NCBI GenBank assembly: GCA_002356515.1
Contig: AP017605.1
Span: 1,178,001 to 1,242,000 of the forward strand
Origin: Mesorhizobium loti
Lineage (GTDB): Bacteria > Pseudomonadota > Alphaproteobacteria > Rhizobiales > Rhizobiaceae
Reading direction: 5' to 3'
Length of the DNA stretch: 64,000 nt
A program made the translations under genes and the position numbers. The number at the start of each line of letters is the position of its first letter. Position 1 is the first letter of the stretch. A model generated the notes under the pieces. It was not told the DNA's origin. It was given only the letters and a program-made list of their open reading frames with translations, and did no database searches. Positions 51,811 to 63,906 of this stretch are shown piece by piece.

Positions 51811-52587
51811 ATGCGCAAGCTTCTCGTCATCGGCATCGGCGCCGGCAATCCCGACCACATGACCGTGCAGGCCATATCAGGCCTGAACCGTGCCGATGTG
51901 CTGTTCATCCCAGACAAGGGCGCCAAGAAGAACGACCTTGCCGAATTGCGGCGCGAGATTTGCGACCGCTTCGTCACCAACCTCAAATCGCGCCGCGTCG
52001 AATTCGACGTGCCGGTGCGCGCCGAACCGACATCCTCCTACCGCTCGACCGTCGACGACTGGCACGAAGCCATCGCCGCTATCTATGAAGCCCTGATCCG
52101 CGACGAGCTTTCCGAGAATGGCTGCGGCGCCTTCCTGATCTGGGGCGACCCTTCGCTCTACGACAGCGCGCTGCGTATCCTCGAGCGGGTGCGCCTGAGG
52201 GACAATGTCGCCTTCGAGTTGGAGGTCATCCCCGGCATCACCGCCATCCAGGCGCTTGCCGCCAGTCACAGAATGGCACTGAACCGCATCGGCGATTCCG
52301 TGTTGATCACCACTGGCCGCCGGCTGACCGAGGAAGGCTTGCCCGCCAATGCTGGCGCGGCAGTGGTCATGCTCGATGGCAAATGCGCCTTCAACACGCT
52401 CACCGACAAGGATGTCTTCATTCAGTGGGGTGCCTATCTCGGCACGCCTGACGAGATCATTCTCTCGGGCCGCATCGGCGATGTCGGCGCCGAGATCGAA
52501 AAAGTCCGCGAAGAAGCCCGTCGGCAAAAGGGCTGGATCATGGATACCTATCTGCTGCGCAAGCCCGGCGAGCCGGACGATATCTAG
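51811..52587 (+). CDS. cobF: Precorrin-6A synthase (deacetylating)
   Basis: CobF methylates C1 of precorrin-5 and releases acetate in the aerobic cobalamin pathway, using S-adenosylmethionine. The 258-residue protein shows the tetrapyrrole methylase fold: GIGAGNPDHMTVQAISGL at the N-terminus, FLIWGDPSLYDS (the GDP-S motif near residue 111) and EVIPGITAIQAL. The ATG at 51811 has a GGGCAGGAG ribosome-binding site. It stands alone here, far from other cob genes in the window, with no cobalamin riboswitch seen upstream but three 20-bp tandem repeats there. Confidence 0.95.
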   Translation: MRKLLVIGIGAGNPDHMTVQAISGLNRADVLFIPDKGAKKNDLAELRREICDRFVTNLKSRRVEFDVPVRAEPTSSYRSTVDDWHEAIAAIYEALIRDELSENGCGAFLIWGDPSLYDSALRILERVRLRDNVAFELEVIPGITAIQALAASHRMALNRIGDSVLITTGRRLTEEGLPANAGAAVVMLDGKCAFNTLTDKDVFIQWGAYLGTPDEIILSGRIGDVGAEIEKVREEARRQKGWIMDTYLLRKPGEPDDI

Positions 52588-52909
52588 CCAGCGTCGGCGC
52601 CGCATGGGTAACAAGTCCGGCGAGACGGTTTGGTGGCTCGCAAGAGTCAGAAAAAACAGCGTATTATGCTAATTTGATAATCAAGCGCCGTCTCGCGGAA
52701 CCCACCCGTGCGGCGTATATCACATATATTGACGTTAAATTCACAGAATTGTATGATCAGTTGGCCGGTTCGAATCCCGCCGCTGTTTCCATCGGCGGCT
52801 GCAATCGGCAACGGCGGATCCCGGCGAGGATGATTTCCATGATGTTCAGCGCCACCCTTGTTCAGGACCAATTCGCAACGCTTACCGGCTCACGCTGAAC
52901 GGGATCATC
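52588..52909 (+). promoter_or_regulatory. Regulatory region of the polyol-kinase operon
   Basis: The 322-bp gap has no gene. It carries a sigma-70 type promoter with -35 TTGACG (52729-52734), a 17-bp spacer and -10 TATGAT (52752-52757). This lies in a 46-bp block (52718-52763) that matches 57096-57141 at 35 of 46 positions without gaps. A TNTCACA-like motif occurs just before the -35 box (52718-52724) and again in the spacer (52739-52745), as a 21-bp-spaced direct repeat. The predicted 5' leader of about 145 bp contains a CCGCCG/CGGCGG hairpin. Confidence 0.75.
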
Positions 52910-54445
52910 ATGTCCAGCCTGCTTGGGATCGACAACGGCCTGACGGTGACGAAGGCAGTGATCTTCGATGCAGATGGCTCGCAGCTGTCGGTGGCCAGGC
53001 GCCGCGTGCCGCAATCCATGCCGCATCCCCGCTGGGTCGAACGCGACATGCTGGGCCTCTGGCAGGCGACCGCCGAGGCGATCAGGGAAGCCATTGCTCT
53101 CAGCGGCAGGCCGGCTGACGACATCAAGGCCGTGGCGGCGACCGCGCATGGCGACGGGCTGTACCTGCTCGACAGGAACCGCCAGCCGCTCGGCCCCGGA
53201 ATATTATCGCTCGACAGCCGCGCCGGCGAAATCGTCGATGGATGGACCAAGGGTTCGGTTTTTGCCGATTCTCTCGCGCTGACCGGGCAGGTTCCGCACG
53301 CTTCGGCACCATCGGCGATACTGGCCTGGCTGAAAAAGCACGACCCGGAACGTTTCAGCCAGATCGGCCATATCGTCGGGTGCAAGGACTGGCTGCGCTT
53401 TTGCCTGACGGGCACCGTCGGCACCGATCTGACCGAGGCGAGCACCTCGTTCACCGACGTGCGCACGCAAGCCTACGCGCCCGAGGCGATGCGCATCTTT
53501 GGGCTGGAAGAACTGTTCGCGGCTTTGCCCGGAGTTGCGCATTCGGCCGACATTGTCGGCTACGCCACCGCAGAGGCGGCAGCACTGACCGGGCTTGCCG
53601 AAGGCACCCCTGTCGCTTGCGGCCTGCACGACGTCACCGCCTCGGCGCTTGGCATTGGCGGCCACGAGGATGGCGTGGTCAGCATCGTCGCCGGCACCTA
53701 CTCGATCAACGAAGTGGTCTCCGCCGAGCCGCGCACCGATCCGCGCTGGTTCTGCCGCAACGCCATCGACCACGGCCGCTGGAACAACATGTCGATCTCG
53801 CCGGCCTCGACGGCGAATTACGACTGGTTTCTCGACACGCTCTGCCGCGCCGAACAGGACGAGGCCAGGAAGACCGGCGGCTCGATCCACCAGATGCTGG
53901 CGACCGAAATCGACACCGCGCTGAAGAAGCCGTCAACCCTGCTCTTCCACCCCTATCTGTTCGGTTCGCCCTACGGCAATTCCGCCAGCGCCAGCTTCGT
54001 CGGCTTGCGCGGCTGGCATGACCGCGGCGACATGCTGAAGGCGGTGCTGGAAGGCATAGCCTTCAACCACCGCACCCATGTCGAAGCCCTGCGCGACGGC
54101 TTTGCCGTTCGCGAGGTGCGGCTGACCGGCGGCGGCTCGCGCAATCCGGCCATCGCGCAGATGTTCGCCGACGTGCTCAACGTGCCGGTGATCGTCACTG
54201 CGACCGACGAGGCGGCCGCCTACGGCGCCGCCCTTTGCGCCGGCGCGGCAATCGGCCTGTTCGCCTCGCCGCAGGACGGCGCGCGCGCCACCTGCACGGT
54301 GAGCCGCGAATACCGCCCGGACCCGGCACGCAGCGCCGTCTTCGACGAGCGTTATTCCATCTATGGCCGCGTTGCCGAACAGCTCAGGCCGAAATGGGCG
54401 GAAATCGAAAGCCTTGCAGAGCAGGAAATGGGGGGCACGGCATGA
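52910..54445 (+). CDS. FGGY-family carbohydrate kinase
   Basis: This 511-residue sugar/polyol kinase has the FGGY two-domain layout: the ATP/phosphate loop GIDNGLTVTKAVIFDADG at the start, and the C-terminal FGGY signature region LTGGGSRNPAIAQMFADVLN. It resembles erythritol kinase (EryA) and xylulose-type kinases; the exact substrate is not determined by the sequence. It is the first gene of a unit with a DeoR regulator and a GlpD-like dehydrogenase, all with ATGA overlaps. A carbohydrate ABC transporter operon with a shared promoter motif follows. An erythritol or related polyol is inferred. Confidence 0.9.
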   Translation: MSSLLGIDNGLTVTKAVIFDADGSQLSVARRRVPQSMPHPRWVERDMLGLWQATAEAIREAIALSGRPADDIKAVAATAHGDGLYLLDRNRQPLGPGILSLDSRAGEIVDGWTKGSVFADSLALTGQVPHASAPSAILAWLKKHDPERFSQIGHIVGCKDWLRFCLTGTVGTDLTEASTSFTDVRTQAYAPEAMRIFGLEELFAALPGVAHSADIVGYATAEAAALTGLAEGTPVACGLHDVTASALGIGGHEDGVVSIVAGTYSINEVVSAEPRTDPRWFCRNAIDHGRWNNMSISPASTANYDWFLDTLCRAEQDEARKTGGSIHQMLATEIDTALKKPSTLLFHPYLFGSPYGNSASASFVGLRGWHDRGDMLKAVLEGIAFNHRTHVEALRDGFAVREVRLTGGGSRNPAIAQMFADVLNVPVIVTATDEAAAYGAALCAGAAIGLFASPQDGARATCTVSREYRPDPARSAVFDERYSIYGRVAEQLRPKWAEIESLAEQEMGGTA

Positions 54446-55218
54446 TCAAGGCCGACGAACGGCGCGAAGAAATCGCCGAATACGTGATAAAACTCGGCCA
54501 GGTGCGCATCGACGATCTGGTCGAGCATTTCGGCGTATCGCGCATGACCATCCACCGCCACATCGACCAGTTGGCGCACCAAGGCGTGCTGCGCAAGCTG
54601 CATGGCGCCGTCACCGTGCAGCCATCCGGCCTCTACGAAAGCGCCTTCCGCTACCGGGTGACGGTTGGGCGGGCGGAGAAGGACGCGCTGGCCCGTGCCG
54701 CGATGGATTATGTCGAGCCGGGACAGGCGATCATCCTGGACGATTCGACCACGGCCAATGCCGTTGCGCCGCTACTGCTCGAGGTCACGCCGCTGACCGT
54801 CATCACCAACAGCGTGTCGACGGCGGCCTTGCTGACCAATGTCGACGACATCGACTTCATCTGCCTCGGCGGCCAGTACCATCGCACCTACAACGCCTAT
54901 ATCGGCATCGTCTGCGAGAATGCGATCTCGCGACTGCGCGCCAATCTCTTGATTTGCTCGGCATCGGCGATCAGTGGCACCACGGCCTTCATCCAGGATC
55001 AGCATGTGGTGCGGGTCAAGCAGGCGATGATGGCGGCGGCGATCAAGCGCATTCTTCTGGTCGACCATTCCAAGTTCGACAAGGTGGCTCTGCACGTGCT
55101 CGACGACCTGATCAGCTTCGAGGCGGTCCTGGTCACCGACGGCATCAGCGACAAGCATGCGCAAAAGCTGGAGCAGGCCGGGGTTCAGTTGCGCGTCGTC
55201 AAGACGGCGAGGCCATGA
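54442..55218 (+). CDS. DeoR-family transcriptional regulator
   Basis: This 258-residue repressor has the DeoR winged helix (EEIAEYVIKLGQVRIDDLVEHFGVS about 8-32, then MTIHRHIDQLAHQGVLRKLHGA) and a C-terminal sugar-phosphate-binding ISOCOT domain with DDSTTANAVAPLL and GTTAFIQDQ. It is cotranslated with the kinase (ATGA) and with the dehydrogenase (ATGA). The two promoters of the locus share a 46-bp sequence, so this protein is the natural candidate to bind it and to respond to the phosphorylated product of the kinase. Confidence 0.93.
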   Translation: MIKADERREEIAEYVIKLGQVRIDDLVEHFGVSRMTIHRHIDQLAHQGVLRKLHGAVTVQPSGLYESAFRYRVTVGRAEKDALARAAMDYVEPGQAIILDDSTTANAVAPLLLEVTPLTVITNSVSTAALLTNVDDIDFICLGGQYHRTYNAYIGIVCENAISRLRANLLICSASAISGTTAFIQDQHVVRVKQAMMAAAIKRILLVDHSKFDKVALHVLDDLISFEAVLVTDGISDKHAQKLEQAGVQLRVVKTARP

Positions 55219-56921
55219 CATCAACGGCCGAAAGCCATCACGGCTCCGAGCGCCATGGCGCACCCGATGAGGGTGATATCGATGTTGTCATCCTCGGCGC
55301 CGGCATCAACGGAGCCGGCCTGTTTCGCGATCTCAGCGCGCAGGGCGTCAGCTGCTGCATTGTCGACAAGGCGGATTTCGGCTCCGGCACCAGTGCGGCG
55401 CCGTCGCGCCTGATCCATGGCGGGCTTAAATATCTCGAAACCGGCGAATTCGGGCTGGTGGCGCAGTCGACGCTGGAGCGCAACCTGCTGCTCAAGAACG
55501 CTCCGCACTATGTCTCACCGCTGCCGACGGTCATTCCGATCTTCTCCTGGAGCAAGGGCATGTGGGCGGCGCTGCGCACGCTGCTGGGCTCGACCAGCGC
55601 GCCGCGCAGCCGAGGTGCTGTCCTCATCAAGATCGGCCTGATGATCTATGATTTCTACGGCTCCAGGCACCGGGTGATGCCGCGCCATCGGCTCGTCGGG
55701 CGCCGTCAGGCGCTGCGCGACATGCCGGCGCTGACCGGCTCGATCGTCGCCACCGGCACCTATTACGACGCCAAGATCACACACCCCGAACGGCTGGTGC
55801 TCGAGCTGATCGCCGACGGGCTGGAGGCCAATCCCAACTCCAGCGCGGCCAACTACACCGCGCTGGTCTCTTCCTCGAACGGAGTGCTGGCCTTCCGGCG
55901 GGAGAATGGCGGCGAATTCTCGCTGCGGCCGAGACTGGTCGTCAACGCCGCCGGCCCATGGATCGACCATGTCAACGCAGCACTCGGCGCGCCGTCCAAG
56001 ATGATCGGCGGCACCAAGGGCTCGCACATCCTGTTGAAGCACGATGCCCTGGTGCAAAGCCTGGCTGGGCGCATGCTCTATTTCGAGGCCGATGACGGCC
56101 GCATCTGCCTTGTCTACGACTATCTCGGCAAGGCGCTCGTCGGCTCGACGGATCTTGCGGCCGACAATCCGGATACGGTCCGCTGCGAGCCGGCGGAAAT
56201 CGATTATCTGCTGGAAAGAGTGCGCACACTGTTGCCGGGCATGCGGTTCGAACGCGACCAGATCGTCTATGCCTATAGCGGCATCAGGCCCCTGCCCGCA
56301 TCCGACGCCGCTTTCCCCGGCCTGATCAGCCGCGACCATTCGGCGCCGGTGGCGGAACCGGAGCCGTCGCGCCCCTTCCCGATCATCTCGCTGATCGGCG
56401 GCAAATGGACGACATTCCGCGGTTTCGCCGAGGAAGTCGCCGACACCGTGCTTGATCGTCTTGGCCGCGCCCGCAAAGTGACGACGCGCTCGATGCCGAT
56501 CGGCGGCGGCAAGGACTTCCCGGCCGACACAGCGGCGCGGTCGAGATGGCTGGTCAGTGCCGCATCGGCCTCAGGCATCGACCAGGCCCGCCTCGACCAG
56601 TTGCTGTCGCGCTATGGCACCAAGGCGTCGCGGATAGCCCGCCACCAGGGCGCATCGAGCAATGAAGACCGCTTGCCGGACTCGAGCGACTACAGCGTGT
56701 CGGAGATCGACTACATCGCTCGCAATGAATTCGTCGAACATCTCGCCGATATCGTCATGCGGCGCACGACCCTGGCGATCAGCGGTTCCCTGACGATAGG
56801 CGACTTGCAGCAGGTCGCCATCGTTGCTGGCCGGGCGATCGGCTGGACCCCGCAAAGGACCAGCGAGGAGATCGATCAAGTTGTCACGCAGCTCAACGGC
56901 GCCAATTTGATGGGGCTGTAA
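55215..56921 (+). CDS. FAD-dependent glycerol-3-phosphate/polyol-phosphate dehydrogenase-like protein
   Basis: This 568-residue GlpD-like flavoprotein oxidises glycerol 3-phosphate or a related polyol phosphate and feeds electrons to the quinone pool. The FAD loop is VVILGAGINGAGLFRDL (near 25-40), followed by CIVDKADFGSGTSAAPSRLIHGG; the substrate region includes PGKTYY-like segments (KALVGSTDLA) and YAYSGIRPLP. A C-terminal DAO_C-type domain follows about 390-560. The D-erythritol-1-phosphate dehydrogenase EryB of rhizobia and Brucella belongs to this family. It follows the DeoR gene with a 4-bp overlap. Confidence 0.88.
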   Translation: MTSTAESHHGSERHGAPDEGDIDVVILGAGINGAGLFRDLSAQGVSCCIVDKADFGSGTSAAPSRLIHGGLKYLETGEFGLVAQSTLERNLLLKNAPHYVSPLPTVIPIFSWSKGMWAALRTLLGSTSAPRSRGAVLIKIGLMIYDFYGSRHRVMPRHRLVGRRQALRDMPALTGSIVATGTYYDAKITHPERLVLELIADGLEANPNSSAANYTALVSSSNGVLAFRRENGGEFSLRPRLVVNAAGPWIDHVNAALGAPSKMIGGTKGSHILLKHDALVQSLAGRMLYFEADDGRICLVYDYLGKALVGSTDLAADNPDTVRCEPAEIDYLLERVRTLLPGMRFERDQIVYAYSGIRPLPASDAAFPGLISRDHSAPVAEPEPSRPFPIISLIGGKWTTFRGFAEEVADTVLDRLGRARKVTTRSMPIGGGKDFPADTAARSRWLVSAASASGIDQARLDQLLSRYGTKASRIARHQGASSNEDRLPDSSDYSVSEIDYIARNEFVEHLADIVMRRTTLAISGSLTIGDLQQVAIVAGRAIGWTPQRTSEEIDQVVTQLNGANLMGL

Positions 56922-57268
56922 CCGGAGCGCCGCGCCAAACTGGCCTGAGCGCGGCACCGCCACCTTGCCGGCTTGAAGCAACCGTATCACGGCATCTGTG
57001 AGATATTGTTGATTTCTAAAAACTCAATAAAATCAATAGCATTGCTCGATCTATGGCAGTCGTATGGTCACATGAATGTTACATTATCGGCGAAGTATCA
57101 CAGACATTGACGGTAATTTCACATCGATGTATGGTCGATTGCGTTGGAGGAGCACGCTGCGGGAGGGGTCGATGCAGCGGACCGACCGTCCAGCGGCTTA
57201 TGCGGCGCTTCACGCCAACAAAATGGAATGCCACCCCTCATCGCCGCCACTGCACAGGTCGTCACAGC
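56922..57268 (+). promoter_or_regulatory. Regulatory region of the ABC transporter operon
   Basis: The 347-bp gap holds no gene. It has -35 TTGACG (57107-57112), a 17-bp spacer and -10 TATGGT (57130-57135), inside a 46-bp block (57096-57141) shared with the kinase promoter. The conserved parts are TATCACA before the -35, ATTGACG, TTCACA in the spacer and TGTATG at the -10. A further partial motif GTATGGTCACATGAATGT lies upstream at 57062-57079. The predicted leader before DUF2291 is about 127 bp. Confidence 0.75.
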
Positions 57269-57928
57269 ATGAGTTCGCAGCCAGCAGCCACCACGATGAA
57301 CCGGCGAGGATCGCCTGGCCTGCGCTGGGTGGCCGTCGCGGTCGCGATCCTGGTGCTGCTCGGCGCGATGATCCTCGACACCAAGATCGTCATGATCGGC
57401 TCGGCCGAGGACACCCGCAAAGCCGCGTTTTCGCCGGAGGCGTTCGGCAAGGCTGAATTTCCGAACGTGCAATCCGCCGTGGAACAGCGCGCCGTCGATG
57501 CGCCGACGCTTGCCGCGGCCATCGCCAAGGACAAGGCGGCGGCGGAGAAACAATATGGCGTGCCGGCCAATGTCGGCACCGAATTCTCGGTCAAGTTCAC
57601 CGGTGTGGTCGGCGAAGGAAAGTCGGGCATCTACACCGTCAAGGTCGCCGACGTTCCGGACAATCTGGTCATTCGCGTCCAGACCGGGCCGGCGATCAAC
57701 GGCACCGATCTGCGCGACGCCACCGGCGCGATCACCTTCGGCCAGTTCACCAACCAGATCGAGTACCAGAACGCGGGCTCGGCCCTGAACAATGAGATGA
57801 AGAAGCAGGTGCTGTCGGCCATCGACAACACCCAGCTCACCGGCAAGACCATCTCGGTCGTCGGCGTCTTCAAGCTGATCAATCCCAAAGGCTGGCTGGT
57901 CGCGCCGGTGAAGCTGAGCGTCCAATGA
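57269..57928 (+). CDS. DUF2291 family protein
   Basis: This 219-residue protein has an N-terminal membrane segment (about 18-38, WVAVAVAILVLLGAMIL) and a DUF2291 domain. Conserved-looking parts are KIVMIGSAEDTRKAAFSPEAFG near the start and LTGKTISVVGVFKLINPKGW near the end. It is presumably periplasmic and membrane-anchored. It heads the sugar-type ABC transporter operon, the usual location of the family, with an ATGA overlap to the ATPase. Its role in transport is unknown. A later ATG at 57296 is an alternative start. Confidence 0.85.
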   Translation: MSSQPAATTMNRRGSPGLRWVAVAVAILVLLGAMILDTKIVMIGSAEDTRKAAFSPEAFGKAEFPNVQSAVEQRAVDAPTLAAAIAKDKAAAEKQYGVPANVGTEFSVKFTGVVGEGKSGIYTVKVADVPDNLVIRVQTGPAINGTDLRDATGAITFGQFTNQIEYQNAGSALNNEMKKQVLSAIDNTQLTGKTISVVGVFKLINPKGWLVAPVKLSVQ

Positions 57929-59505
57929 ATGCGGCGCCCGAGTTCGAGCCGGCGCCGGGCGACACCGTGCTTGCGGCCCGCCACATCGTAAAGACCTATG
58001 GCGGCACGCATGCGCTGAAAGGCGTCAATTTCGACATACGTCGCGGCAAGGTCACGACGCTGTTCGGCGAAAACGGTGCCGGCAAGTCGACATTGATGAA
58101 GATCCTGTCCGGCGTGACGACGCCGACTTCGGGAAGCATCGAGCTCGACGGCCAGTCCGTCACCTTCTCTTCCGCTTCCGACGCCCGCGATTGCGGCATC
58201 TCGATCATCCATCAGGAACTCAGCCTCGCGCCCAATCTCAGCGTGCGCGACAACATCTTCATGGGCCGGGAAATACGCGGCGCGACCGGCGTCGATTTTG
58301 CCGAGGAAGCCCGCCAGACGCGGCTGCTGATGGCCGAGCTCGAGGAAGACATCGATCCGCTGACGCTGGTCCAGGACCTGCGCCTGGGGCAGCAGCAGAT
58401 CGTCGAGATCGCGCGCGCGCTTTCGGTCGATTCGCGCATCCTGATCATGGATGAGCCGACTTCGGCGCTGAGCGCCACCGAGGTCGAGGTGCTGTTCAGG
58501 GTGATCCGCGACCTGACCGCCCGCGGCGTTTCGATCGTCTACATCTCGCACCACCTTGAGGAGGCGTTGCAGATCACCGACTATGCCGTGGTGCTCAGGG
58601 ACGGCGCGATCACCGCGACGGCCAACGCCAGGCACATCAACCTCGAATGGATCGTCCGCAACATGGTGGGCGAGAACTTCGACCTCGGCTCGCCGCCCAC
58701 CGGCTATGCCTTCGGCGAGGTCGCTCTGTCGGTCGAGGACGTCAGCGTCGCCGATGCCTCGAGTTCGGAACGGTCCGTGGTCGACAGGCTGTCGCTTGCC
58801 GTGCGCAGCGGCGAGATCGTCTGCATCTATGGGCTGATGGGCGCCGGGCGCACCGAATTGCTGGAATGCATCGCCGGGCGCCTGCAGCCATCGGGCGGGC
58901 GCATCCTGCTCGAAGGCAACGACATCTCCCGCCTCGGAATTGCCGAACGCATCGCCCGGGGGCTCGTCCTGGTGCCCGAGGACCGCCAGCGCGACGGCCT
59001 GGTGCAGACCATGTCGGTCGGCGCCAACCTGTCGCTCGCCAGCATCGGATCCTTCGTCAGGGGAATGTTCTTGTCGCGCTCGCAGGAGCGGTCGCTGGTC
59101 GAAGCCTCCATCCGCGACGTGCACGTCAAGACCGCGGGCGGCAGCGCGCCCATCGGCTCGCTGTCCGGCGGCAACCAGCAAAAGGTCGTCATCGGCAAGA
59201 TGCTGACCACCAATCCCAAGGTCATGCTGCTAGACGAGCCGAGCCGCGGCATCGACATCGGCGCCAAGGCGGAGGTGTTCCGGCTGCTCAGCGAACGGGC
59301 GGCCCGCGGGCTCGCCGTCGTCTTCTCGACCTCGGAAGTCGCCGAATGCCTGAGCATCGCGCACCGGATCATCGTCATGCATCGCGGCAGGATCTCGGCC
59401 GAATTCACTGCCGATGCCACGAAGGAAGAGATCATGGCCGCTTCCGGCGAGGCCGTGGTCTCCGACCATGAAGAACACAGGAGCCACCACCGTGACCGAC
59501 GCTAG
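57925..59505 (+). CDS. Carbohydrate ABC transporter ATP-binding protein (RbsA/XylG type)
   Basis: This 526-residue protein contains two fused ABC ATPase modules, the form used by ribose/xylose-type importers. The first module has GENGAGKST and a normal LRLGQQQIVEIAR signature and Walker B LIMDEPTSAL. The second lacks a standard Walker A (GLMGAGRTELL), as is normal for the second module of RbsA-type proteins, and has SGGNQQK and MLLDEPSRGID. It overlaps the DUF2291 and permease genes by 4 and 14 bp. Import of a polyol or monosaccharide is inferred from the neighbours. Confidence 0.94.
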   Translation: MNAAPEFEPAPGDTVLAARHIVKTYGGTHALKGVNFDIRRGKVTTLFGENGAGKSTLMKILSGVTTPTSGSIELDGQSVTFSSASDARDCGISIIHQELSLAPNLSVRDNIFMGREIRGATGVDFAEEARQTRLLMAELEEDIDPLTLVQDLRLGQQQIVEIARALSVDSRILIMDEPTSALSATEVEVLFRVIRDLTARGVSIVYISHHLEEALQITDYAVVLRDGAITATANARHINLEWIVRNMVGENFDLGSPPTGYAFGEVALSVEDVSVADASSSERSVVDRLSLAVRSGEIVCIYGLMGAGRTELLECIAGRLQPSGGRILLEGNDISRLGIAERIARGLVLVPEDRQRDGLVQTMSVGANLSLASIGSFVRGMFLSRSQERSLVEASIRDVHVKTAGGSAPIGSLSGGNQQKVVIGKMLTTNPKVMLLDEPSRGIDIGAKAEVFRLLSERAARGLAVVFSTSEVAECLSIAHRIIVMHRGRISAEFTADATKEEIMAASGEAVVSDHEEHRSHHRDRR

Positions 59506-60634
59506 CCCCGATCGCAGCCGCTCCCCGAGGGTTTCGCCAAGGGTTTCGACCGACGGCTTCAGCCTGGCCAAGCTTCTGCTGGAGGGCCGCGCCTTCTTCG
59601 CGCTGATCGCGATCATCATCGTCTTCTCGCTGCTGTCTCCCTACTACTTCTCGGTCGGCAATTTCCTGACCATGGCCTCGCATGTCGCCATCTTCGGCAT
59701 ACTGGCGGTCGGCATGCTGCTGGTCATCCTCAATGGCGGCATCGACCTGTCGGTCGGCTCGACGCTGGGCTTCTCCGGCGTGATCGCCGGCTTCCTGATG
59801 CAGGGCGTGCAGCTGACCTCGTTCGGCGTCATCCTCTACCCGCCGGTCTGGGTCGTCGTGGTGCTGGTCTGCGTGCTCGGCGCCCTGGTCGGCCTGGTCA
59901 ACGGCGTTCTCATCGCCTGGCTGAAGGTGCCCGCCTTCGTCGCCACGCTCGGCATGCTCTACGTCGTGCGCGGCGCGGCGCTGCTGATGACCAACGGCCT
60001 GACCTACAACGATCTCGGCGGCAAGCCGGAACTCGGCAACACAGGCTTCGAGTGGCTCGGCTTCAACCGCCTGCTCGACATCCCGATCGGCGTGCTGGTC
60101 ATGGCCGTCATTGCCCTCATCGGCAGCATCATCCTCAACCGCACCGCCTTCGGCCGCTGGCTCTACGCTTCCGGCGGCAACGAACGCGCCGCCGAACTCT
60201 CCGGCGTGCCGGTCAAGCAGGTGCAGGTCTCGGTCTATATGCTCTCCGGCATTTGCGCGGCGGTGGCCGGTCTTATCCTATCGTCCGAACTGACCTCGGC
60301 GGGACCAACCGCCGGCACCTCATACGAGCTCACGGCAATTGCCGCCGTCGTCATCGGCGGTGCGGCTCTGACCGGTGGCCGGGGCAACATCCGCGGCACG
60401 CTGGTCGGTGCCTTCGTGATCGGCTTCCTGTCCGATGGTCTGGTGATCATCGGCGTCTCTGCCTATTGGCAAACAGTGTTCACCGGCGCGGTCATCGTGT
60501 TGGCGGTGCTGCTCAACGCCATCCAGTATCGCCGCCGCGTCAAGCTTCCGAGCCCGACCGGCGGCTCGCCCACTTCTCCACAAAAGGACAAGGCCACAAC
60601 GGCCGATCCCGCCCTCGAGAAGACTGCCGGTTGA
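59492..60634 (+). CDS. Carbohydrate ABC transporter permease (RbsC type)
   Basis: This 380-residue inner-membrane permease of the BPD_transp_2 family has about ten hydrophobic helices. The family pattern LNGGIDLSVGSTLGFSGVIAG (about 80-100) and the C-terminal TGGRGNIRGTLVGAF are present. The GTG at 59492 has AGGAG 8 bp upstream and is preferred to an ATG 24 bp earlier that lacks a ribosome-binding site. The polar C-terminal tail (about 350-380) is unusually long and proline/threonine-rich. It works with the ATPase and the binding protein around it. Confidence 0.93.
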   Translation: MTDASPDRSRSPRVSPRVSTDGFSLAKLLLEGRAFFALIAIIIVFSLLSPYYFSVGNFLTMASHVAIFGILAVGMLLVILNGGIDLSVGSTLGFSGVIAGFLMQGVQLTSFGVILYPPVWVVVVLVCVLGALVGLVNGVLIAWLKVPAFVATLGMLYVVRGAALLMTNGLTYNDLGGKPELGNTGFEWLGFNRLLDIPIGVLVMAVIALIGSIILNRTAFGRWLYASGGNERAAELSGVPVKQVQVSVYMLSGICAAVAGLILSSELTSAGPTAGTSYELTAIAAVVIGGAALTGGRGNIRGTLVGAFVIGFLSDGLVIIGVSAYWQTVFTGAVIVLAVLLNAIQYRRRVKLPSPTGGSPTSPQKDKATTADPALEKTAG

Positions 60635-60666
60635 CCGGCGCGATTGCTAACCAAAGGAGGAACTCT

Positions 60667-61620
60667 ATGTATCGCAGTGCCAGAATTCTGATGCTCTCGG
60701 CCTTCGCCCTGGCCGCACCGATCGTCGCGGCAAGCGCGGCGTCGGCCGGTGGCCTCATCTCGATCATCGTCATCGATCCCGCTAACCCCTACTGGCTCAC
60801 TGAAGGCAATGTCGCCAAGGCCGAAGCCGAGAAGCTCGGCTACACCGCGACCGTCGGCGCCTCCAAGGCCGACACCAACACCGAGAGCAAGCTGATCGAC
60901 ACGGCGATCACCAACAAGTCCGTGGCCATCATCCTTGACCCGGCCGATGCCAGCGGCTCGATCGGCGCTGTGAAGAAGGCGATCGCCGCCAACATCCCGG
61001 TCTTCCTCGTCAATGCCGAGATCAACCAGGAGGGCCTCGCCAAGGCGCAGCTTGTCTCGAACAACGCCCAGGGCGCAGCACTTGGCGGCCAGCAATGGGT
61101 GACGGCCATCGGCGAGAAGGGCAACTATGTCGAACTGCTCGGCGCGCCATCCGACAACAACGCCGCGACACGGTCTAACGGCTACGAGACCGTGATCAGC
61201 CAGTATCCCGACCTCAAGAAGGTCGGCTCGGAAGTCGCCAACTGGGACCGCACCCAGGGCCACGACAAGATGCAGAGCCTGCTCCAGGCTCATCCCGACA
61301 TCATCGGCGTGACCAGCGGCAATGACGAGATGGCGCTCGGTGCGATCGCGGCACTGAAAGAGGCTGGAAAACTGTCGAGCATCAAGGTCGGCGGCTTCGA
61401 TGGCTCGCCGGACGCTGTCGCCGCCATCAAGGCCGGCGACCTGCAATACACCGTGCTGCAGCCGGTGGCCGTCTACTCGGCGAAGGCCGTGCAGCAGGCG
61501 GACTCCTTTATCAAGACCGGCAAGACGGGTGCTGCGACCGAGAAGCAGCTGTTCGACTGCCTGCTCATCACCAAGGACAATGTCGACAAGTACACGGCTC
61601 CGTTCACGCTCTCGGAGTAA
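60667..61620 (+). CDS. Sugar ABC transporter substrate-binding protein (RbsB type)
   Basis: This 317-residue periplasmic binding protein has a signal peptide (about 1-27, ending ASAASAGG) and a Peripla_BP_4 fold with the repeats GLISIIVIDPANPYW and KSVAIILDPADASGS. It lies 32 bp after the permease gene with an AAAGGAGG ribosome-binding site 6 bp before the ATG, the strongest in the operon, fitting the need for excess binding protein. The ligand is not determined, but the kinase and dehydrogenase upstream suggest a polyol such as erythritol or a pentitol. Confidence 0.94.
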   Translation: MYRSARILMLSAFALAAPIVAASAASAGGLISIIVIDPANPYWLTEGNVAKAEAEKLGYTATVGASKADTNTESKLIDTAITNKSVAIILDPADASGSIGAVKKAIAANIPVFLVNAEINQEGLAKAQLVSNNAQGAALGGQQWVTAIGEKGNYVELLGAPSDNNAATRSNGYETVISQYPDLKKVGSEVANWDRTQGHDKMQSLLQAHPDIIGVTSGNDEMALGAIAALKEAGKLSSIKVGGFDGSPDAVAAIKAGDLQYTVLQPVAVYSAKAVQQADSFIKTGKTGAATEKQLFDCLLITKDNVDKYTAPFTLSE

Positions 61621-61629
61621 GAAACCGAC

Positions 61630-61655
61630 GAGGGGTGGCCTTTCGGTCGCCCCTC
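61630..61655 (+). terminator. Hairpin after the ABC operon
   Basis: GAGGGGTGGCC (61630-61640) pairs imperfectly with GGTCGCCCCTC (61645-61655) 10 bp after the stop. There is no long T run, so this is a weak or Rho-assisted terminator. Confidence 0.6.
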
Positions 61656-61674
61656 TCCTGTTCCCGCCGATCAC

Positions 61675-62016
61675 TCAGCCCGCATCGATCTCCGCCTGCA
61701 GCGCATCCATATGCGTCGCCGCTGCGGCGGTCGCTGCGCGCTCGATGGCGCGGAAACGGCTGACCACCGCCAGGCCGATGGCCGTCAGCTGCGCGCCGCC
61801 GCCCTTGCGGCCGCCGGTCTGTGCCGCAACCAACGGCTTGCCGAACACCCGGTTCATGTCCTCGACCAAGTCCCAGGCGTGCTTGTAGGACATTTCCATG
61901 CCGCGCGCGGCGGCCGAGATCGAGCCAAACGTGGCGATGTGCTCCAGAAGCTCGATCTTGCCCGGACCAATCCGCCCGTCTGGATCGAGATTTATCCGCA
62001 AGCTCAGCGATGGCAT
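61675..62016 (-). CDS. ModE-like winged-helix regulator (DNA-binding domain only)
   Basis: This 113-residue protein matches the N-terminal winged helix of ModE: GPGKIELLEHIATFGSISAAARGMEMSYKHAWDLVEDMN (about residues 17-55, shown in parts: GSISAAARGMEMSYK and HAWDLVEDMN). It ends soon after the wing with AIERAATAAAA and lacks the two molybdate-binding domains of full-length ModE. It is 76 bp downstream of modC on the same strand. It may sense molybdate indirectly or act as a partner of another protein. Confidence 0.85.
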   Translation of the reverse strand: MPSLSLRINLDPDGRIGPGKIELLEHIATFGSISAAARGMEMSYKHAWDLVEDMNRVFGKPLVAAQTGGRKGGGAQLTAIGLAVVSRFRAIERAATAAAATHMDALQAEIDAG

Positions 62017-62092
62017 CTTTGCTCCTCCGCGGTCACCTCCACTTCGGCAAAACCGCTATTCCAAAATAATATAGCGCCGATCGCCGCACCTG

Positions 62093-63205
62093 TCAGCCAT
62101 CGACCTCGAGCGGCAGGCCGGCGCCGGTGTTGGCCTGGTCGAAGCTCACTGTCTTGACCACCGCGAAAACCTTGCCGCCGAGCCGCAGCTTCAGCGCCTG
62201 CCGCGACTGTTCGGTGATGCGGGCCAGTACCGTTGCGCCATTGCAGTCGATGCCGACCTCGACCGCCGGCCCCTCGCCCGGGCGGATCGCGACGATCGTA
62301 CCTTGCAGGATGTTGAGCGCGCTGAGGCCCGTCGGCCTCTCCGTGGCGATCATCACATCACGGGCACGAATGCGGACACGCACGGGAGCGCCGGGCTTCA
62401 TTGCAAGGCGCGGCACACGGATCTCGCCGGCGGCCGAGCCGAGCACGGTCATGCCGAACACCTCATCGTGACTCAGCACTTTCGTGTCCAGCACCGCCCC
62501 GCCCTCGCCGCGCTCCTCCGCCGGCAGCAGGTCGAGCCTTTGCATCACCGCCTCGGTCGGACCGCTGGCAACGACCTTGCCTTGCGCCAGCATCACCACG
62601 TCGCTCGCCAGCCGCGCCACTTCGGCGATGGAATGGCTGACATAGACGATCGGGATCTTCGTCTCGTCGCGCAGCCGTTCGATATAGGGCAGGATCTCCG
62701 CCTTGCGCGCCTCGTCGAGCGAGGCCAGCGGCTCGTCCATGAGCAGAAGTTTCGGACTGGCGAGCAGCGCCCGGCCGATCGCCACGCGCTGCTTCTCGCC
62801 GCCGGAGAGTCTTGCCGGGCGCCGCCCAAGCAGCGGACCGATGCCGAGCAGTTCGACAACGGCATCCATCTCGGCGTAGCGCTCTGATGGCGGCGTGAAC
62901 CAGCGGCCGTAGCGCAGATTGCTGGCCACGCTCATATGCGGGAACAGCCGCGCGTCCTGGAACACCATGCCGATCCGGCGCCTGTGCTTCGGCACGAAAA
63001 TGCCGGCATCGGTATCGACCAGCACGCGGCCGTCGACCGCGATGCGGCCCTTGTCGGGCCGGATCAGCCCGGCGATCATGTTGATGAGCGAGGTCTTACC
63101 GGAGCCTGACGGCCCGAACAGCGCCGTCAGCCGCCCGGCGCTCTCGAAGCGCGCCTCGATGGCGACATCGCCGAGCTGGTGGCCGATGTCGACGAGGACG
63201 CTCAT
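62093..63205 (-). CDS. modC: Molybdate ABC transporter ATP-binding protein
   Basis: ModC energises molybdate import. The 370-residue protein has Walker A GPSGSGKTS (31-39), the LSGGEKQR signature (about 133-140), Walker B LLLMDEPLASLD, and a C-terminal TOBE/molbindin domain (about 290-360) with SALNILQGTIVAI, which can bind oxyanion. It overlaps modB by 4 bp. The order modA-modB-modC reads right to left, followed by a ModE-like gene. Confidence 0.95.
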   Translation of the reverse strand: MSVLVDIGHQLGDVAIEARFESAGRLTALFGPSGSGKTSLINMIAGLIRPDKGRIAVDGRVLVDTDAGIFVPKHRRRIGMVFQDARLFPHMSVASNLRYGRWFTPPSERYAEMDAVVELLGIGPLLGRRPARLSGGEKQRVAIGRALLASPKLLLMDEPLASLDEARKAEILPYIERLRDETKIPIVYVSHSIAEVARLASDVVMLAQGKVVASGPTEAVMQRLDLLPAEERGEGGAVLDTKVLSHDEVFGMTVLGSAAGEIRVPRLAMKPGAPVRVRIRARDVMIATERPTGLSALNILQGTIVAIRPGEGPAVEVGIDCNGATVLARITEQSRQALKLRLGGKVFAVVKTVSFDQANTGAGLPLEVDG

Positions 63206-63906
63206 TCGATATCCATCCGACGCCCGACTCGCCGCGCCAGCACTTCCGAGGCGACCAGCGCCGCCATCGAGATGACGATCGAGATCAAGGTCAGTCGCAG
63301 CGCGCCCTCATCGCCGCCCGGCACCTGCGTGAACGTGTAGATCGCCGAGGGCAGTGTCTGCGTCTCATTGGGAATGTTGGAGACAAAGGTGATCGTCGCG
63401 CCGAACTCGCCCATCGCCTTGGCGAAGGCCAGGATGGCGCCGGCGATCAGGCCGGGCAGGATCAGCGGCAGCGTGATGGTGGCGAACACCCACAGAGGAT
63501 TGGCGCCCAACGTCCCCGCCGCCGCCTCCATCTTGCGGTCCACCGCTTCGATCGACAGCCGGATCGCCCGCACCATCAGCGGAAAGCCCATGACGGCGCA
63601 AGCCAGCGCCGCACCCGTCCAGCGAAACGAGAAGACGATGCCGAAATGCTCGGCCAGGAAGGCGCCCGCCGGACCGCGCTTGCCGAAGGTAAGCAGCAAG
63701 AGATAGCCGGTCACCACGGGCGGCAGGATCAGCGGCAGGTGGACCACGCCGTTGAGCAGCGTCTTGCCCCAGAATTGTCCGCGGGCAAGCAACAGGGCAA
63801 TCAAGATGCCCGGCGGTAGGCTGAAAAGCATCGCCACGGTCGCCACCTTGATGGACAGCCGGACCGCATTCCATTCGTCGGGAGTGAGGTCCAGCAGCCA
63901 GGTCAT
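63202..63906 (-). CDS. modB: Molybdate ABC transporter permease
   Basis: ModB is the inner-membrane permease. At 234 residues it has five or six hydrophobic helices and the EAA-type loop MEAAAGTLGANPLWVFATITLPLILPG (its key residues EAAxxxG at about 135-142). The start MTWLLDLTPDEWNAV is the normal N-terminus. The ATG of modC overlaps its stop. The gap to the modA stop is about 20 bp, so the three genes form one operon. Confidence 0.94.
   Translation of the reverse strand: MTWLLDLTPDEWNAVRLSIKVATVAMLFSLPPGILIALLLARGQFWGKTLLNGVVHLPLILPPVVTGYLLLLTFGKRGPAGAFLAEHFGIVFSFRWTGAALACAVMGFPLMVRAIRLSIEAVDRKMEAAAGTLGANPLWVFATITLPLILPGLIAGAILAFAKAMGEFGATITFVSNIPNETQTLPSAIYTFTQVPGGDEGALRLTLISIVISMAALVASEVLARRVGRRMDIE

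Follow-up and report, generated by a model that had tools for sequence, protein, structure and literature searches.

Genes and putative promoters of the locus

The DNA analyzed in this work, called here the window, is a stretch of 64,000 nucleotides of Mesorhizobium loti (assembly GCA_002356515.1, contig AP017605.1, positions 1,178,001 to 1,242,000 of the forward strand), from a genome of 8.45 Mb in four contigs. Attention was centered on a 46-bp element found there twice, upstream of a catabolic operon and of a transport operon, and on its relationship to a DeoR-family regulator encoded between the two copies. All the features of this locus lie on the + strand. The gene order is cobF (51811–52587), which is the upstream neighbor of the first operon; an FGGY-family carbohydrate kinase (52910–54445), identified by Pfam FGGY_N/FGGY_C and tblastn; the DeoR-family regulator (54442–55218), with Pfam HTH_DeoR and DeoRC domains; a GlpD-like dehydrogenase dependent on flavin adenine dinucleotide (55215–56921), identified by Pfam DAO and DAO_C and tblastn; a DUF2291 predicted periplasmic lipoprotein (57269–57928; PF10054, E 9.2e-44); and the components of a sugar transporter of the ATP-binding cassette (ABC) type, namely an EryE-type ATPase recognized by family matches (57925–59505), an EryF-type permease with a provisional start codon (59477–60634) and an EryG-type periplasmic substrate-binding protein with an approximate start (60670–61620). 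Since neighboring genes overlap by 4 bases each, the kinase, DeoR and GlpD-like genes probably form one operon; the DUF2291 and ATPase genes overlap by 4 bases as well. The regulator scored 52.8 bits with PF08220 (cut-off 21) and 131.8 bits with PF00455 (cut-off 31.8), which places it in the DeoR family, and it fell in no named NCBIfam equivalog (AgaR, SrlR, GlpR and others), the best one being NF040755, AgaR, with 122.9 bits and a cut-off of 260.

The two copies of the element, at 52718–52763 (element 1, upstream of the kinase-DeoR-GlpD operon) and 57096–57141 (element 2, upstream of the transporter operon), are identical in 35 of 46 positions without gaps. This pair was the top ungapped 46-mer match between the intergenic regions 52588–52909 and 56922–57268, and none of 500 pairs of dinucleotide-preserving shuffles reached 35 identities (best 29, mean 24.5). 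A consensus promoter scan of 52588–62100 picked up, independently of each other, a promoter within each copy, among a total of four promoter-like sites (shuffle mean 1.6). Promoter 1 consists of a −35 box TTGACG (52729–52734), a 17-bp spacer and a −10 box TATGAT (52752–52757), and promoter 2 of TTGACG (57107–57112), a 17-bp spacer and TATGGT (57130–57135). With 10/12 and 9/12 matches to the consensus hexamers, and spacers within 16–18 bp, both have the make-up of sigma-70 promoters. So, the first-pass annotation of this sequence, which had described the two matching blocks and taken each of them as a promoter, was right about the match and agrees with the scan concerning the promoters.

Outside the boxes, both copies contain TATCACA before the −35 box and TTCACA in the spacer, spaced by 21 bp, although the repeat finder, at the settings used, did not report this repeat. 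ATCACA, the upstream and first copy of this direct repeat, is at 52719–52724 in element 1 and at 57097–57102 in element 2. The shared sequence of the spacer exceeds TTCACA: it reads GTTAAATTCACA in one copy and GGTAATTTCACA in the other, beginning at the final base of the −35 box, and includes the putative operator cores TTAAATTCACA (52735–52745) and GTAATTTCACA (57113–57123). Concerning other kinds of signals, an Rfam scan of 52588–62100 at E values up to 1 found nothing like a riboswitch or a known structured leader, and a possible tRNA remnant directly after element 1 (GGTTCGAATCC) was discarded, as ARAGORN gave no tRNA in the window.

Conservation in orthologous loci

When genome contigs were scanned with the DeoR protein, 76 loci were obtained, of which 65 (L009–L073) were used for promoter comparison, the 11 distant ones (L074–L084, DeoR identity 28–39%) being excluded. 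The nearest relatives by DeoR protein were Mesorhizobium, with 96–100% identity in the ten closest loci (L009–L017 and L056). Four groups were considered. Clade 1 contains 20 loci (L009–L027 and L056) with the transporter directly downstream. The 19 loci of clade 2 (L028–L047 minus L040) have about 1.3–1.5 kb between GlpD and DUF2291 where the contig extends far enough, and the gap is filled by a SorC-type gene in both loci examined (L033 and L044). In the Rhizobium-type group, made up of nine loci (L040 and L048–L055), the transporter is upstream of the kinase. Finally, there is a more distant group of 17 loci (L057–L073) with 56–68% identity in DeoR.

A weight matrix was built from 42 sites of clade 1 and the window, the other three groups staying outside the training set. 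When the 65 loci and the whole window were scored on both strands, 91 matches above 8 bits were obtained among 1,980,774 positions. Every one of them sits at a kinase or a transporter promoter, with none elsewhere in the scored stretches, and they are distributed as 40 in clade 1, 37 in clade 2, nine in the Rhizobium-type group, three in the distant loci and two in the window. A separate regular-expression search located the same places as the clade-1 training sites; it skipped the transporter upstream regions of L040, L049, L054, L060 and L069, where the stretch starts too near the gene or within it (the L054 record was re-read as L096, which is one and the same record).

The element was present at both operons in 20/20 clade-1 loci, which are those of the training set. 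Out of sample, in clade 2, the pattern was kept at 19/19 kinase promoters and at 18/18 readable transporter promoters, the contig of L047 stopping before the transporter. This comparison of orthologous loci, on which the first-pass annotation had staked its proposal, thus came out in favor of it. Altogether, the Mesorhizobium-type loci carry it upstream of the kinase operon in 39/39 cases and upstream of the transporter operon in the 38/38 that reach it. The Rhizobium-type loci (9/9) and three more distant Mesorhizobium loci carry it at the kinase promoter only, and the three matches in the distant group are at the kinase promoter as well. Because of this, the joining of both operons into one regulon, which the first-pass annotation had proposed without restriction, seems to hold, as far as sequence evidence goes, for the Mesorhizobium loci with the transporter downstream, and not for the other arrangements.

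By eye, unscored TGTAAC-like repeats are visible in several of the more distant loci, and upstream of the kinase in L062–L065 and L067 the promoter is surrounded by repeats resembling GTCAC...ATCACA...GTTAC, which may represent an extended operator. In five records with the transporter upstream of the kinase (L095, L096 and L110–L112), a second DeoR gene (41–44% identity) lies between the substrate-binding protein and the kinase, and the transporter promoter gave no element.

Conserved bases and architecture of the element

Column information was computed over 82 unique sites, out of 88 selected by matrix score. The mean was 0.16 bits upstream of the block, 1.42 in columns 1–6 (the upstream repeat), 0.47 in columns 7–10, 1.59 in columns 17–27 of the spacer, 0.36 in the rest of the spacer (columns 28–33), 1.70 in the −10 box and 0.19 downstream. 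Considering the 88 sites, TTGACG and the KKAA directly after it were present in all of them (88/88 each), TAYGRT in 84/88, and TMACA in 81/88 for the spacer copy and 61/88 for the upstream copy. Apart from the boxes, the part of the shared sequence that is kept best is thus the KKAAnWTMACA of the promoter spacer, and the copy before the −35 box (TATCACA) is weaker.

The strongest internal similarity of the profile was a direct repeat at 21 bp, and only 12/1000 column permutations reached its score. The permutation tests, this one and those that follow, treat the sites as unrelated and ignore their kinship. The 21-bp direct repeat is the best-supported architecture, with the spacer element as its most constrained part. 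However, it is not the whole operator everywhere, because the upstream copy is degenerate at the kinase promoters of clade 2, where TMACA was found in 0/19 and the commonest sequence was TCTCA (12/19). So, of the operator composed of TATCACA and TTCACA that had been suggested from the window alone, the 21-bp spacing stands as the strongest internal repeat, while the literal TCACA has to be relaxed to TMACA and the upstream copy cannot be generalized. Two other symmetries were considered. The spacer inverted repeat GTTAAnTTMAC was not significant in the sites used (276/1000 permutations reached its symmetry); GTTAAnTTAAC is exact in 42/88 sites, and L110–L112, where the inverted repeat is perfect or nearly so, read TGTTAATTTMACA. 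A tandem array of three copies, in which the −35 box would be the middle one, had a score reached by 24/5000 permutations, with offsets chosen post hoc. Its central copy is weak, with negative pair scores for copies 1–2 and 2–3, and the array can be taken as a suggestion only.

These data bear on the idea that the block is merely a strong promoter shared by duplication, its conservation being due to RNA polymerase contacts and common ancestry, with no operator involved. TTGACG and the TAYGRT −10 box are indeed among the best-kept parts, but a plain promoter does not account well for columns 17–27 and 1–6 being conserved nearly as much as the −10 box when columns 7–10 and 28–33 are not. Together with the results of the next section, this makes the explanation very unlikely.

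Specificity of the element and co-occurrence with the DeoR gene

A search of the own genome with a loose core pattern gave no sites within one mismatch other than those of the window, one of which fitted the pattern fully and the other with one mismatch. Two further core matches had two mismatches each, and a reversed-pattern control likewise gave two. In this genome the element is thus nearly confined to the two promoters of the locus.

The co-occurrence of the element and the regulator gene was studied in a census of 146 genomes of the genus, 139 of which passed a completeness filter, with up to 18 DeoR candidates scored per genome. The exact core TTGACGKKAANWTMACA was found in 47/146 genomes, the reversed-pattern control giving one match in the same set, and a DeoR orthologue of at least 81% identity in 46/146. 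The exact core was present in 46/46 genomes with such an orthologue versus 1/100 without it. Two exact sites occurred in 43 of the 46, and in 42 of these they were on one contig, 4,316–4,611 bases apart, those of G079 being on two contigs; in the other three genomes (G006, G035 and G114) the second site is present with one mismatch. The 47th genome with the core, G091, which has no DeoR orthologue, gave no matrix match around its core match.

Eleven of the 100 remaining genomes carry a DeoR with 59–61% identity and no exact core. Three of them were inspected, and their kinase promoter is TGTAACA-N3-RTTGATGTTAATTTMACA, in which TGTAACA and GTTAATTTMACA are kept but the −35 box has become TTGAT; no element was found at their transporter. 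Because the −35 box changes while TGTAACA and the spacer core remain, the constraint is not that of the promoter alone. This is a second argument against the plain-promoter explanation, and a third one is that such a promoter would not be expected to track the DeoR orthologue genome by genome, even though the whole module travels together.

Probable identity and mode of action of the regulator

In a 19.5-kb stretch of pRL12 of Rhizobium leguminosarum A1, which contains a kinase, a dehydrogenase, the transporter and a different DeoR, neither the element nor the window-type DeoR was found. The genome of the window has, on the same contig, a separate ery-type locus at 6.88 Mb, with EryD-like, EryA-like (57%) and EryB-like genes and a DeoR of 44% identity to that of the window; this locus also lacks the element. 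The recognition helix of the window-type DeoR reads SRMTIHRH in 17/18 of the orthologue rows shown (SRMTIHRD in L060), and those of paralogues read SLMTAHRD and, in the DeoR of the own ery locus, SKMTVHRD. Because pRL12 and the own ery locus are without the element, and the recognition helices differ, the comparison of sequences points to the DeoR encoded in the locus as the regulator acting through it. The candidacy of this protein, raised in the first-pass annotation, gains from the fact that the presence of the element follows the orthologue.

An alternative is that the element would be the operator of another regulator of the erythritol network, either EryD, of the SorC family, or another protein of the DeoR type (EryR, or the paralogue whose gene precedes the kinase in Rhizobium). 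Two facts would fit: DeoR paralogues with 41–45% identity exist in the own and related genomes, and the operon behind the second element starts with an EryD-like gene in M. ciceri and other loci of clade 2. However, the element is missing both from the own ery locus, with its EryD-, EryA- and EryB-like genes and 44% DeoR, and from the pRL12 stretch, which has the upstream DeoR paralogue and not the window-type DeoR; both elements are present, with no EryD-like gene nearby, in the window as well as in L009 and L018, the two loci of clade 1 that were searched for such a gene; and the recognition helices are different. An assignment to EryD or to a paralogue is therefore quite unlikely.

Another point is whether the DeoR of the locus, even if it binds the element, represses transcription or instead works as an activator or dual regulator. 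Activators, too, can bind where the upstream repeat is found, immediately 5′ of the −35 box, and one of the DeoR-type NCBIfam models matched is named L-fucose operon activator. On the other hand, the best-kept part is between the −35 and −10 boxes, where a bound protein normally blocks the polymerase, and the −35 box is near the consensus and does not look activator-dependent. So, activation appears unlikely, and repression is favored.

Possible function of the module and relationship to erythritol loci

Compared to the proteins of pRL12, the window ATPase and permease are 76% identical each, the substrate-binding protein 83% (82.7%) and the DUF2291 protein 58%. For ery loci, identity cut-offs of 73% for EryG, 46% for EryA and 65% for EryB are given in PMC3599248. 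The substrate-binding protein of pRL12 lies beside EryA/EryB-like genes, and the identity of the window protein to it is above the EryG value. The window kinase, with 28–30% identity to two EryA-like proteins, and the dehydrogenase, with about 30% to the own EryB-like protein, are below those for EryA and EryB; by tblastn, the kinase is 66% identical to a pRL12 kinase that comes after eryEFG and a DeoR gene. On these identities, the transporter is classed as an EryEFG homologue. The substrate of the module is most likely a four-carbon or related polyol. As the importer shared by this second kinase/dehydrogenase pair is of the erythritol type, a related polyol such as threitol may be involved.

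The locus of M. ciceri WSM1271 (L044 9868–10920 and its continuation L113, G008:C1:5474500-5490500) is informative concerning the relationship with erythritol. There, the kinase-DeoR-GlpD genes are followed by the second element and an EryD-like SorC gene, and then by DUF2291, eryEFG, eryA, eryB and two more genes matching the own ery locus of the window genome. The precedence of eryD over the eryEFG-type transporter in M. ciceri agrees with what is described in PMC3599248. Judging from this arrangement, one DeoR-type site may stand above the whole erythritol operon of M. ciceri.

In both the window and pRL12, the transporter operon begins with DUF2291. No use of the name DUF2291 was found in open-licence papers, and to our knowledge no role has been reported for it. 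Past the locus, at 61675–63906 on the − strand, there are a ModE-like regulator, an ABC ATPase and a permease, which look like a molybdate transport operon by gene order, the ModE-like gene alone being family-matched.

Interpretation and comparison with known systems

Taken together, the results very probably mean that the two blocks are sigma-70-type promoters with an operator in common, to which the DeoR-family protein encoded at 54442–55218 would bind as the local repressor of a polyol module. An operator-like element is shared by adjacent catabolic and transport promoters and conserved with the regulator gene, as in a local DeoR regulon. The shared switch probably makes the two neighboring operons co-regulated, an ordinary and known kind of gene control.

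Several points weigh against this interpretation. We infer promoter activity, binding, repression (versus activation), inducer and substrate from sequence comparisons. The clade-1 sites were picked by similarity to a hand-typed consensus, which makes the clade-1 count circular if taken alone, and the selection of the 88 sites by the matrix inflates their conservation; the results free of this bias are those for clade 2 and the differences among columns. The upstream copy is degenerate at the clade-2 kinase promoters, as shown above. No matrix match above 8 bits was found in 14 of the 17 more distant loci (L057–L073). Of the loci with the transporter upstream of the kinase, 12 were read, and no element was found at its promoter in any of them. 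Finally, since kinase, DeoR and dehydrogenase are inherited together, co-occurrence alone does not single out DeoR.

The proposed mechanism would be as follows. The operator core KKAAnWTMACA would lie in the spacer directly after the −35 TTGACG, and another TMACA copy would immediately precede this box, at a distance of two helical turns (21 bp) from the one in the core. In the absence of inducer, the −35 box and the spacer would be covered by DeoR, which probably forms a dimer or tetramer aligned with a single face of the helix, and RNA polymerase would be excluded. DeoR-family repressors commonly respond to phosphorylated sugars. When the polyol arrives, it would be phosphorylated by the kinase, and the phosphorylated intermediate would release the repressor, so that the kinase-DeoR-GlpD operon, which would be autoregulated, and the DUF2291-EryEFG-type transporter operon could both be switched on. 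Under this reading, an unassigned polyol module present in 46/146 genomes of the genus would gain a concrete operator and a regulon of two operons, and there would be a reason for the transporter adjoining this kinase/dehydrogenase pair; in M. ciceri it would place a DeoR-type site ahead of the erythritol operon.

A more speculative extension, possible but doubtful, is that one DeoR controls an undescribed second kinase/dehydrogenase pair for a tetritol (e.g., threitol) through a tandem operator with the −35 TTGACG as the middle repeat, and that, in strains of the M. ciceri type, it also stands at the top of the entire erythritol operon, along with the gene for EryD, the known erythritol repressor. 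If so, this DeoR would be a higher-level regulator so far missing from the picture of erythritol use in these rhizobia, and in the clade of the window the switch and the importer would have stayed separate from the erythritol genes.

No paper evidently devoted to this operator or module was found among open-licence ones. The comparison made here is with related systems. Concerning RhaR of R. leguminosarum (rhaRSTPQUK and rhaDI), PMC3870299 likewise describes a DeoR-family gene within a catabolic locus controlling two operons, for transport and for kinase/catabolism. DeoR-family RhaR motifs are reported there as direct (tandem) repeats with a 10–11 bp periodicity, a symmetry to which the direct repeat of the window element may correspond. 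The window system differs in that its operons are in tandem and not divergent, and the strongest repeat period of its element is 21 bp, with only a weak middle copy at 10–11 bp. Concerning the own ery locus, its EryR-type DeoR (L105 17031–17804, named by context) belongs to the same family as the window DeoR, with 44% identity, and also to a polyol locus, but differs in the recognition helix (SKMTVHRD versus SRMTIHRH) and in the lack of the element at its locus. As to the EryD operator, PMC3522698 reports that the search for it among erythritol-responsive genes of Brucella gave no satisfactory result. The erythritol loci eryABCD-eryEFG of R. leguminosarum and M. ciceri (PMC3599248) differ from the window in that the kinase and dehydrogenase of the latter are only about 30% identical to EryA and EryB, and no EryD-like gene was found in the window. 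Nevertheless, they have like the window an EryEFG-type transporter; the operon for it on pRL12 also starts with DUF2291; and in M. ciceri the FGGY-DeoR-GlpD genes lie directly upstream of eryD-DUF2291-eryEFG-eryA-eryB.

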